DNA from: a bacterium
Lineage (GTDB): Bacteria > Patescibacteriota > Dojkabacteria > GCA-002793355
Direction of reading: 5' to 3'
DNA length: 64,000 nucleotides
Assembly: GCA_020853235.1 (NCBI GenBank)
Contig: JADYZG010000007.1
Coordinates: 1-64,000, forward strand
Shown here: positions 23,548 to 43,162 of the stretch, in pieces
Position numbering within the stretch: position 1 is the first letter of the stretch
How the letters are laid out: each line of letters begins with the position of its first letter
Notes under the pieces: generated by a model
Databases searched by the model: none
The model's input: only the letters and a program-made list of their open reading frames with translations
What the model was told of the DNA's origin: nothing
Position numbers and translations under genes: made by a program

Positions 23548-24930
23548 ATGACGATTACTAATCAAGAAATGCAAAAATTGTGGGACCTTGTCAAATTTTC
23601 GTTATCGAAGAAATTTTCGCCTGAATCGTATAAAGCTTGGATTGAGCATTCGACCAAATTAACCGATGTTGCCGAAGGTAAAGTTATTGTTTCTGTTCGT
23701 AACAATCTCGCACTTCAATGGCTCGAAAAAAATGCAAAAGAGCAATTGACCATTATCTTTAGAGATGTTCTCGGTGAAGGAAATGTATCACTTGAAGTTA
23801 ATCAGGACGCTTTTGAGGCAAAATTGCCTATAAAAGATACCATCCCAAAGATAGGCAACTTGTTATCACAGGTCGAAGAAAAAGAAGGGAAAATGAAGAA
23901 AGCGCTAAAGGATGCTGGACTCAATGAAAAATACACATTCGAGACTTTTGTTGTTGGAAATAATAACCAAATTGCTCATGCTGCTGCTCAAGCGATAACT
24001 CAACATATTGGGCAAGAGTATAACCCACTATTTGTGTATGGTAGTGTCGGGGTTGGGAAAACTCACTTAATGCACGCTATTGGGCATGCTGTTCTTGACC
24101 ATGATATGAGTAAGAAAATTTTTTACTGCTCGAGTGAGACTTTTTTAAACGAATTAGTAGAATCGATTCGTAGTAAAAAGAATGCAGAATTTAGGGAAAA
24201 ATATAGGAAACTAGACATCCTTATGATTGACGATATTCAGTTTATCTCTAAATGGGAAGCAGCGCAGGAAGAGATTTTTCATACGTTCAACGTACTTTCC
24301 GGTGCAAATAAGCAAATTATTCTTGCTTCAGACCGGCCACCAACTCAGATTCAAAATCTCGCAGATAGGCTTCGTTCTCGATTCGAAGGCGGTATGATGA
24401 TTGATATTATTCCTCCAAATTATGAAACTCGCGTTGCGATTTTAGCTAACTACAATAAAGAACATAGTCCGCCATTGTCGTTAGAATGTTTAGAAACGAT
24501 TGCGGTCTTGGTAGAAGATAATGTCCGTCAATTGATCGGTGCTTATAACAAGGTATACACTTACGCAAAGATTACAAATACCCCAATGGACCGAGAAACT
24601 GTTGAGAAGATTATTGGTGTCGACCAAGAGGCTGCACGTCGGAAAGTCAGTGTTGAAGATATTTTGGAAAATGTGGCGGATGCTTTTGGTGTCACAATAG
24701 GACAAATGAAATCTGCCACCAGAACCGCTGAAGTCGCCATGCCTCGCCAAATCGCAATGTACTTGATTCGTGATATACTGAATTATCCGTTAGAAAGAGT
24801 TGCTCGTTCTTTAAAGAGGAACGATCATACGACAGTAATTCATGCTGTTGAAAAGGTCAATAAACTAATGACAAATGACCATCTTCTTCGCACGCAAATT
24901 GTCGGGATAAAAAACAGTATACTCAAATAG
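23548..24930 (+). CDS. dnaA: Chromosomal replication initiator DnaA
   Basis: AAA+ YGSVGVGKTHLMHAIGH, LMIDDIQF, C-terminal LKRNDHTTVIHAVEKV. ATG 23548 preferred; track start 23509 is a TTG overlapping the DnaA boxes. Confidence 0.97.
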   Translation: MTITNQEMQKLWDLVKFSLSKKFSPESYKAWIEHSTKLTDVAEGKVIVSVRNNLALQWLEKNAKEQLTIIFRDVLGEGNVSLEVNQDAFEAKLPIKDTIPKIGNLLSQVEEKEGKMKKALKDAGLNEKYTFETFVVGNNNQIAHAAAQAITQHIGQEYNPLFVYGSVGVGKTHLMHAIGHAVLDHDMSKKIFYCSSETFLNELVESIRSKKNAEFREKYRKLDILMIDDIQFISKWEAAQEEIFHTFNVLSGANKQIILASDRPPTQIQNLADRLRSRFEGGMMIDIIPPNYETRVAILANYNKEHSPPLSLECLETIAVLVEDNVRQLIGAYNKVYTYAKITNTPMDRETVEKIIGVDQEAARRKVSVEDILENVADAFGVTIGQMKSATRTAEVAMPRQIAMYLIRDILNYPLERVARSLKRNDHTTVIHAVEKVNKLMTNDHLLRTQIVGIKNSILK

Positions 24931-39669: not shown

Positions 39670-40062
39670 ATGGAAAAATCAATTTTACAAAGCAAGTCGT
39701 TTGGCTTGTCGGTCTCGGTATACCAAAAAGTTACCGAACTGCAGAAGAAGCAGAAGGAGTTTTTACTGACACAGTGGTGGGCAGAAAGTGTCACGTCTAT
39801 CGCTCTAAATATGTATCTTGCCTCTGAATTGCATGTAAAACGAGGTTTGGCGATGTATTTCTACACAGCGCGCAAAGCGACGCATAAATCAATTTTTTGG
39901 ACTAAATTATTATTGGAAGCAGGCTATCTTGATAAAACTGAAGGGGAAATGATTCAACAATCCTTAATAGAATTAATTAAAATGATTCAAGCATCGATTA
40001 CGACGGTCGTTGCAAATCGAGGGAAAAAGCAAAAGGCAGAGAATGGAACTACAATTTCCTAG
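39670..40062 (+). CDS. Four-helix-bundle (S23/IVP-like) protein
   Basis: About 130 aa helical; pattern SKSFGLSVSVYQKVTEL...AARKATHKSIFWTKLLLEAGYL. Confidence 0.45.
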   Translation: MEKSILQSKSFGLSVSVYQKVTELQKKQKEFLLTQWWAESVTSIALNMYLASELHVKRGLAMYFYTARKATHKSIFWTKLLLEAGYLDKTEGEMIQQSLIELIKMIQASITTVVANRGKKQKAENGTTIS

Positions 40063-40080: not shown

Positions 40081-41379
40081 ATGTATGTTTGTAATAATTG
40101 TGGTTCAACTCAGTCTAAGTGGCTTGGAAAATGCCCTCAATGCGAATCGTGGGGATCGTTTGAGGAAGCTCCAGATACACTAAAGAAATCAAAGAATAAA
40201 TTAGGTATTACAAATCAATTCGCAACATCATTTGTGCAAGCGAGTAAAGTTGATAGAAAACCCTTGAAGAGATTAGTTACTGGCTTTGACGAGGTTGATA
40301 GAGTTCTCGGTGGTGGCATTGCCGAAGGTACGGTAGCTCTTGTCGGAGGTGATCCGGGTATTGGGAAGTCGACATTACTGTTGCAGGTTTTGGCAAATTT
40401 TGCGCAAGCAGGCAAAACTGTGGCGTACATTTCTGGAGAAGAGTCTATCGACCAAGTTTCTGAGCGACTGGAACGTGTCATGAATAATGTACCCGAGACA
40501 CTTTTTCTGTTGTCTGATCAAGATCTAGGTAATATTATGGATGGACTCACGGCACAACAGTTCGATGCAATTGTGATTGATTCGATTCACTCTCTGCAAC
40601 ATAACGATCTTGATGGACAGTCAGGAGGAATGAGCCAGTTAAAAGCGGTAACAACAGCCTTAACAACATGGGCAAAGAAGACAAGAACTGTAGTTTTTTT
40701 AATCGCACAGGTGACAAAAGAAGGGTATGTCGCAGGTCCAAAAACGGTGGAGCATATTGTTGATGTGGTTGTGTACCTTGAAAAAGTTGGTTCAGAAAAT
40801 ACGCGCATGATCAGAACGATAAAGAATCGTTACGGAGATACAGGCGAAGTCGGATTTTTGGATATGAAAGTAACTGGAATGGGCGATAAAACTGATTTCG
40901 CAACAATGCTTGTATCTTCACTTTCGTCTGAAGAACCTGGCAGTGCACTTGGAATTACGCTACAGGGATCTCGTCCAATGATTGTACAAATTCAGGCACT
41001 TGTTAATGATTCACCGTTTGCCGTTCCGCGGCGAGTCGTTGAGGGTGTTTCGAAAAATAGGGTAGAAGTGTTGGCAGCAGTTATCGCAAAAAAGATTCCA
41101 AAACTTCATTTAGATCATAAGGACATCTTTATAAAAGTGAATGGAGGCATAACATTGAAGGACTCTGGCACAGATTTAGCCCTCGTTGCAGCGATGGTTT
41201 CTTCTTTAACAGGTAAGCCATGGAAAGAGACTTTATTTATCGGCGAAGTTGGTCTACTTGGAGAAGTTAAACCTGGTCTTGCCTTTGATCAACGTTACAG
41301 AGAGGCAAAGAAGTTGAGTTTTAAAGAAATTTTTGCACAAAAAAGTGTACCAAATATTGCAAAATTAGTGAGTTTCTAG
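40081..41379 (+). CDS. radA: DNA repair protein RadA
   Basis: Zinc finger CNNCGSTQSKWLGKCPQC, Walker A GGDPGIGKST, KNRYGDTGEVGFLDM, Lon-like C-terminus. Confidence 0.96.
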   Translation: MYVCNNCGSTQSKWLGKCPQCESWGSFEEAPDTLKKSKNKLGITNQFATSFVQASKVDRKPLKRLVTGFDEVDRVLGGGIAEGTVALVGGDPGIGKSTLLLQVLANFAQAGKTVAYISGEESIDQVSERLERVMNNVPETLFLLSDQDLGNIMDGLTAQQFDAIVIDSIHSLQHNDLDGQSGGMSQLKAVTTALTTWAKKTRTVVFLIAQVTKEGYVAGPKTVEHIVDVVVYLEKVGSENTRMIRTIKNRYGDTGEVGFLDMKVTGMGDKTDFATMLVSSLSSEEPGSALGITLQGSRPMIVQIQALVNDSPFAVPRRVVEGVSKNRVEVLAAVIAKKIPKLHLDHKDIFIKVNGGITLKDSGTDLALVAAMVSSLTGKPWKETLFIGEVGLLGEVKPGLAFDQRYREAKKLSFKEIFAQKSVPNIAKLVSF

Positions 41380-41495
41380 GGCTGTTCTTCTTTTGTTCTA
41401 TATTTTAACCTTTTGTTTGTTTTATTACAGAATTCATGGCTAAAACGTAATGGCTTGGCCGCTAAAAATACTATTTCTATGCGGATTTAATACTA

Positions 41496-41524
41496 TTGAC
41501 ATTCCAAGTGTCCTAGAATATAAT
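41496..41524 (+). promoter_or_regulatory. Perfect consensus sigma70-type promoter
   Basis: TTGACA (41496-41501) - 17 nt - TATAAT (41519-41524). Confidence 0.85.
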
Positions 41525-41530
41525 TCTTGT

Positions 41531-41683
41531 ATAAAGGTATCCTTATCCCTTGGTTCGGAAGTTCTGAGCCAAAGGATTAGGAGATCTAAAGCACTCCTCA
41601 TATCTCTCGAGAAAAACTCGCTAAAGTGGGCTTTTCTCGGGATCGGTTTGGGGCAGTGCCGATCCCCCAATTTTCTTTTTCCC
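41531..41683 (+). ncRNA. Candidate structured small RNA between radA and rho
   Basis: Promoter, three consecutive hairpins (41541-41581, 41581-41606, 41608-41639) and terminator hairpin 41639-41666; no convincing ORF. Confidence 0.65.
41639..41680 (+). terminator. Intrinsic terminator of the candidate sRNA
   Basis: GGGATCGG (41639-41646) / CCGATCCC (41659-41666), then CCAATTTTCTTTTT. Confidence 0.8.
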
Positions 41684-41899
41684 AACTATAAAAGACAAGG
41701 AATTTAAAAGAAAACATTTTTTTACTTCAAAGCTCAAGTAAATTAATTGCGAAGAATATAATACCCGCAGTTTAAAATACTGCATACAATGAAGTTGTGA
41801 GTGCACTTGCGCAGGGTAGGCTATATTGTGATAGAATAAGCATAAACAATCCTCTTGCATTAATTCACGGGCAGAGATCCTAATATAATCATCTTTTTT

Positions 41900-43162
41900 A
41901 TGTTAACAGTTCAAAAACTCCAAGAAGAGACACTCGTTTCACTTAAGAAAATGGCAGTCGAGCAAGGCGTTACAAACGCAGACGACTTTACCGCTAAAGA
42001 TAAAGATAAACTCATTTACGAAATTCTAAAGACATCCTCAATTAAGGGTGGTTTCGAATACGCATCTGGAATGCTCGAAGTCGTTAATAATGGAGCACAT
42101 GGATTTGCTCGAGTAGAAGGCGTTTTACCAAGCAACAGAGATATTTATGTTTCTAGCACCCAAATTCAAAAGTTTGGTCTACGAACTGGAGATATTATTG
42201 AAGGTGTTGTTCGTCCATTAAAAGATGGAGAGAAATATCGAAATATGCTTAAAGTTGATTATGTTGGTGGAATGGGAGCTGCTGAAAATATGAAGCGCCT
42301 TCCCTTTGAAAAAAGAACCGTAATTTTCCCAAATAAGCAGTTACACCTTGAAACAAACTCAGAGGTACTTTCGACCAGAATTATCGATTTACTTTCTCCA
42401 ATTGGTTATGGACAGCGATCGATGATTGTTTCCCAGCCGAAGTCCGGTAAAACGACAATTATGAAAGAAATTGCGCAGGGTATTACCGAGAATCATCCAG
42501 ATGTCCAAATTATTGTAGTTCTTGTTGGTGAACGTCCAGAAGAAGTTACGGATATGCAGCGCTCGATCAAAGGTGAAGTATACGCATCGAACTTCGATGA
42601 ACATCCATCAGTAAACGTTGCAACCGCAGAAATGGCATTGGAACGTGCGAAGCGTTTGGTAGAGTGGAATAAGGATGTTGTTATCTTAATGGATAGTATT
42701 ACCCGATTGGCTCGTGCGTATAACTTGGTTATCCCAAGTTCAGGCCGAACGTTGTCAGGTGGTTTTGATCCAGCTGCGTTGTATCCTCCAAAGAGATTCT
42801 TTGGTGCAGCACGAAACTTTGAAGAAGGGGGAAGTTTGACCATTATTGCGACCGCATTGGTAAATACTGGAAGTAAGATGGACGATCTTATCTATGAAGA
42901 ATTCAAGGGTACCGGTAACATGGAACTCCACTTAGATCGAACTCTTGGTGAAAAGAGAATCTACCCAGCAATCGATGTTATCCGTTCAGGAACACGACGA
43001 GAAGACTTGCTGTTAGGTCAGGAAAAACTCCAAATGTCGTGGTTAATTAGAAGAATGTTAGACAATATTGACAAAAATGGAGAGAACGCATCAGAAGTTT
43101 TAATCGAACGAATGAAGACGAGTAAAAGCAATGCAGAATTCTTAAAGAATTTGAGAGAATAA
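41900..43162 (+). CDS. rho: Transcription termination factor Rho
   Basis: QPKSGKTTIMKEIA, VLVGERPEEVTDMQRS, LMDSITRLARAYN, GTGNMELHLDR. Confidence 0.97.
   Translation: MLTVQKLQEETLVSLKKMAVEQGVTNADDFTAKDKDKLIYEILKTSSIKGGFEYASGMLEVVNNGAHGFARVEGVLPSNRDIYVSSTQIQKFGLRTGDIIEGVVRPLKDGEKYRNMLKVDYVGGMGAAENMKRLPFEKRTVIFPNKQLHLETNSEVLSTRIIDLLSPIGYGQRSMIVSQPKSGKTTIMKEIAQGITENHPDVQIIVVLVGERPEEVTDMQRSIKGEVYASNFDEHPSVNVATAEMALERAKRLVEWNKDVVILMDSITRLARAYNLVIPSSGRTLSGGFDPAALYPPKRFFGAARNFEEGGSLTIIATALVNTGSKMDDLIYEEFKGTGNMELHLDRTLGEKRIYPAIDVIRSGTRREDLLLGQEKLQMSWLIRRMLDNIDKNGENASEVLIERMKTSKSNAEFLKNLRE

Follow-up and report, generated by a model that had tools for sequence, protein, structure and literature searches.

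A candidate small RNA gene with a recurrent core hairpin between radA and rho in Dojkabacteria

What is encoded between radA and rho in this Dojkabacteria genome, where a perfect promoter precedes about 150 nt of sequence that appears able to fold? A preliminary description, made from the sequence alone, had proposed an unannotated structured small RNA at 41496-41683, and had named an Rfam search, covariation in relatives and a transcript as checks. The window analysed here is the whole stretch of 64,000 nt. The promoter TTGACA-N17-TATAAT lies on the forward strand at 41496-41524 (TTGACA at 41496-41501 and TATAAT at 41519-41524, both exact), and it is the single perfect match in the 64 kb, with 0.03 matches expected. 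The upstream neighbour is radA (ORF at 40081-41379) and the downstream neighbour is rho (ORF at 41900-43162), both on the same strand; rho was located in relatives by tblastn, and the order radA-RNA-rho is found in most of them. When the sequence 41525-41683 was folded, the predicted energy was -63.3 kcal/mol versus -41.4 +/- 3.9 kcal/mol for shuffled sequences (z -5.57; none of 200 shuffles equalled it). We place the RNA gene, as a predicted transcript, at 41531-41683 on the forward strand, the same place where blastn finds its same-genus homologs. Its start is inferred at approximately 7 nt past the -10 hexamer and its end is inferred from the terminator.

Three hairpins make up the element, all on the forward strand. 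The core hairpin H1 (41539-41583) scores 42.6 bits with our covariance model R1 and shows covariation in relatives; in this genome its invariant unpaired C at 41549 faces A 41573, CC 41547-41548 pairs with GG 41574-41575, and a G.U and a G-C pair adjoin the apical loop. H2, formed by CGAGAAAA/TTTTCTCG (41608-41639), is variable and is compensated between same-genus members. H3, formed by GGGATCGG/CCGATCCC with the conserved loop GGGGCAGU (41639-41666), is an intrinsic terminator stem followed by a T-rich tail evident in the sequence (41667-41683), and it is conserved through much of the class, with altered stems and an identical loop. Between H1 and H2 lies the segment GCACTCCTC (41591-41599), which in this genus is an alternative partner of the H3 loop and 3' arm. 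In three same-genus members this pairing is better by about 8-10 kcal/mol when the minimum-energy fold is compared with a fold in which H3 is forced. Much of the preliminary description held: the promoter is the only fully consensus one in the window, the first hairpin (given there as 41541-41581) is present, and so are the CGAGAAAA/TTTTCTCG hairpin, the GGGATCGG/CCGATCCC terminator hairpin and the T-rich tail. Its view that ORF 41450-41707 looks spurious was also upheld, with no Pfam match and no frame kept open across relatives. The list of hairpins held only in part: not every one is in the best fold, the GCACTCCTC pairing competes with H3, and the GAGAT/ATCTC hairpin can be read but lies outside the minimum-energy fold and was not seen as conserved.

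No Rfam family was matched by the window, by the element at relaxed thresholds (E up to 10) or by the homologous loci of relatives. The models for tmRNA, RNase P RNA, SRP RNA and 6S RNA (RF00013) were unmatched at the element both at the gathering threshold and at E up to 10, in agreement with the earlier statement that it does not show their familiar hallmarks. An RNase P RNA candidate sits on another contig (94.5 bits, just below the 100-bit cut-off), in f8 relatives tmRNA has its own gene next to the RNA, and canonical 6S RNA is present as a separate gene in two of 29 genomes searched (G015 and G021). These two Dojkabacteria genomes have a true 6S RNA (L021 1501-1660; L022), and the search gave none in the remaining 27 relatives. 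The possibility that H1 is a 16S rRNA look-alike was rejected, there being no R1 match in 16 rRNA loci. A literature search returned nothing on the Dojkabacteria RNA, with most subscription journals outside its coverage, and we found no report of regulatory RNAs of such kind in the Candidate Phyla Radiation.

By blastn, two same-genus homologs were aligned along most of the element, and in many other families the match was to the 3' hairpin. Where a genome gave no good blast hit, the interval ahead of rho was read directly and revealed a common first hairpin. The covariance model detects the RNA family in 77 of 86 genomes of the class; some genomes scored negative do carry the RNA (L004, L049, L050). 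In one other class of the phylum it is present in five of eight genomes, and it was not found in the other families sampled in the phylum outside those two classes in a fuller search of 39 genomes. That fuller search repeated an initial phylum-wide one that scored just 12 candidates per genome and missed known members. For an exact-pattern scan we estimated about one chance match, more with GC-rich genomes, and hits outside Patescibacteria were left aside.

The first 49 H1 copies were aligned without trouble. In this 49-copy alignment (A1), changes on both sides are seen at 15 of 19 pairs, and 95.7% of cells pair; the figure is 71.2% for shuffles and does not exceed 54% when the partners are slid. 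A 96-copy alignment (A2) repeats covariation at 15 of 19 pairs; A2 and model R1 both descend from A1, and the A2 result leans on the model. To pass the A1 filter, a copy had to have CC/GG with the third position unpaired, carry a GG-type motif in its 5' arm and a CTG in its 3' arm, and reach a minimum pair count. The invariance of the filtered positions, and part of the pairing percentage, therefore arise by construction. The filter did not impose that the unpaired base be C, nor which bases compensate. Compensated changes in H1 and H2 are also seen in the same-genus members that blastn alone had retrieved. Comparison shows the gene, the structure and the family of this RNA. The first two of the named checks came out with no Rfam match at the element or homologous loci and with strong covariation in relatives; the proposal of an unannotated structured small RNA is supported. 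We consider it very likely that this is a real RNA gene of a new family, its transcription being inferred because of the promoter and terminator.

Across relatives H1 is a hairpin of about 19 bp, in which an outer stem and two C-G pairs are followed by an unpaired C opposite A, U or C, and then by nine pairs ending U.G, G.U, G-C; in this genome the first of the three is C-G. The third base, unpaired, was C in 49 of 49 copies and then in 96 of 96, with a non-G opposite in 94 of 96; the tandem is U.G in 87 and G.U in 91 of the 96. Elsewhere in the stem most pairs change in a compensated manner; the apical part differs among copies in both sequence and length, and is UUCGCGUACA/ACUUA in one large group. 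One to three H1 copies occur per RNA, with duplication or triplication in several genomes, and the hairpin forms with a probability of at least 0.9 in 42 of 43 predicted transcripts. That the first hairpin is the universal core, duplicated in relatives, had escaped the preliminary description. H2 is variable among relatives. The loop GGGCAGU of the 3' terminator hairpin H3 is kept on wholly changed stems (L029, L090, L099) and can occur on two adjacent hairpins of one RNA (L013/L029). No H3 was detected in either family f10 or the second class; both retain H1, which in some members is itself followed by T-rich DNA. H3 forms in 23 of 43 predicted ensembles and is otherwise sequestered, in this genus by GCACTCCTC; a terminator/antiterminator switch, with the alternative fold set against H3, is favoured in only about half of the members.

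The usual order is radA-RNA-rho, and other neighbourhoods occur. Family f4 has clpC-RNA-rplJ-rplL and carries rho at another site, tmRNA adjoins the RNA gene in family f8, and in the second class the RNA gene lies downstream of lon, followed in the genomes examined by a convergent gene or a tRNA gene. Between the RNA and rho there is a further TTGACA promoter at five loci (L051, L052, L057, L059, L060), and the distance from H1 to rho ranges from 159 to more than 1000 nt. Because the promoter-hairpin architecture is kept in different neighbourhoods, the RNA is a stand-alone gene and not a feature of the radA-rho interval. Two further observations concern the surroundings: the RNA gene is divergent to the tmRNA gene in family f8 (L013/L137, L126), and a second H1 copy in G021 (L127 2919-2973) lies close to a copper-ATPase gene, has a weak promoter and lacks H3.

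The 60 homologous promoters score 10-12 of 12, and 28 are perfect. Two features of relatives in this region had been missed before, namely DnaA boxes and a boxA-like 5' end. The exact DnaA box TTATCCACA is present in 18 of 62 promoter regions versus 0.27 expected; the boxes recur at -103/-74, -20 and +50 relative to the -35 hexamer, and the exact box is also found near dnaA in eight of 11 genomes. In this genus it is missing both at the RNA promoter and near dnaA, and the DnaA box itself may possibly have changed here. No exact TTATCCACA was seen in the whole window, which has a dnaA domain near 23920-24405, or around dnaA at L173 (G002). A replication origin adjoining dnaA was rejected as the cause of the boxes: on shared contigs the RNA is about 17-157 kb from dnaA, and the boxes move with the RNA. 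At the transcript start, a boxA-like TCNTTNANA occurs in 19 of 54 relatives outside this genome's own family versus 0.7 in control windows; it resembles the boxA-like sequences of those genomes' rRNA leaders, is short, and does not occur in this genome's family (0 of 6). TATRGG-type repeats are located just upstream of the -35 hexamer in 36 of 60 promoters and of the -10 hexamer in 28 of 60 (0.5 in control windows). They can be seen as direct repeats about 23 bp apart before the -35 and -10 (e.g., L079, L098, L114); they were not seen in rRNA promoters read by eye and are possibly a regulator site. Some of the sequences behind these motif counts are related, and the counts do not represent independent events.

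We propose, with a probability of about 0.5, that the element encodes a trans-acting RNA that titrates or scaffolds an RNA-binding protein; the partner is unidentified. In this view the strong sigma70-type promoter would make an RNA of about 135-150 nt ended by H3, and H1 would be the module that binds protein, recognised by its unpaired C and its U.G/G.U tandem, which lie about one helical turn apart in the long stem. The RNA would hold one cellular RNA-binding protein, with its capacity set by the H1 copy number (1 to 3). Protein binding at H1 is inferred because some positions are fixed when others merely compensate, and because the copy number varies. In many relatives, DnaA binding at the promoter may tie the RNA level to replication or growth, an inference without binding data; in this genome's family such control would be absent or would act through another site. 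Against the proposal stand the lack of a known transcript, partner or phenotype, the invariance that is partly by construction, the possibility that the conserved H3 loop means base-pairing to targets instead, and the lack of DnaA boxes and boxA-like start in this genome's own family.

Comparisons with known systems are of similarity only. Like 6S RNA (RF00013), this small RNA has its own gene and a strong promoter and is shared by most members of a lineage; unlike 6S RNA, its H1 stem has only a 1x1 mismatch in this genome and no large central bubble. CsrB/RsmY-type sRNAs titrate a protein via short hairpins whose number varies between species. The Dojkabacteria RNA may work in a similar way, with a varying number of hairpins, but we claim no membership: the H1 loops share no common GGA and there are one to three copies only. 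BoxA RNAs bound by NusB/S10 are known from rRNA leaders and from E. coli Nus-factor targets such as suhB (PMC5725501). Many relatives have a boxA-like sequence at the transcript start, from which NusB/S10 binding is only inferred; in contrast to those RNAs, ours is short and stand-alone with its own terminator, and the motif is missing in its own family. DnaA-controlled genes carry DnaA boxes in their promoters. The TTATCCACA boxes at repeated promoter distances in relatives, as near dnaA, are similar to this arrangement in the absence of binding data, but here the gene is a small RNA and the boxes are absent in this genome.

A bolder and only tentative reading is that replication-coupled RNA regulators form a new class in the Candidate Phyla Radiation, of which this RNA would be the first member. 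Under DnaA control and with modular hairpins that bind protein, it might conceivably pass the replication state to a global transcription or translation factor. Almost all sampled members of the class, whose genomes are very small, retain the family. H1 gives a defined RNA bait whose two recognition marks can be tested, and the locus is a candidate for connecting replication control with an RNA regulator in hard-to-grow bacteria.

Among the rival explanations, a base-pairing regulatory RNA survives best and remains possible: the H3 loop GGGCAGU would be the mRNA seed and H1 a stabilising or chaperone-binding hairpin. In its favour, the loop is kept while the surrounding stem changes entirely, and it is doubled on neighbouring hairpins (L013/L029). 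Against it, H3 is not found in f10 or the second class where H1 is still there, its complements ACTGCCC/CTGCCCC show no excess in the window (seven sites versus about seven expected by our base-composition estimate), and loop complements are not consistently present in 16S rRNA.

We regard as unlikely a housekeeping RNA that binds RNA polymerase or Nus factors, either as a 6S-like regulator or as a boxA decoy. The strong promoter, the near-universal presence in the class, the scarcity of canonical 6S (2 of 29 genomes) and the boxA-like TCNTTNANA start in 19 of 54 relatives versus 0.7 in controls would fit such a role. However, two genomes carry a true 6S gene plus the RNA, H1 is a closed stem without a central open bubble and has no 6S match at E up to 10, and the short boxA-like motif is absent in the own family (0 of 6).

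A cis-acting rho leader or attenuator, with the H3 terminator governed by alternative pairing, is very improbable. The usual site just upstream of rho and the mutual exclusion of H3 and the alternative fold in about half of the members speak for it. Against it, the gene that follows is a different or convergent one, not rho, in family f4, in family f8, in the second class and at the second G021 copy; independent promoters lie between the RNA and rho in several genomes; and H1 may be as near to rho as 159 nt or more than 1000 nt away. That ORF 41450-41707 is a small protein gene, or the structure a product of chance, can be all but dismissed: an open frame of 85 codons exists, but it starts upstream of the promoter, lacks a Pfam match and is not kept in relatives, and the covariation is far beyond that of shuffles.

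Farther upstream of radA lie clpC and a gene for a protein of the 23S-rRNA-intervening-sequence type; the latter, the ORF at 39670-40062 between clpC and radA, encodes a four-helix protein of that type (PF05635).
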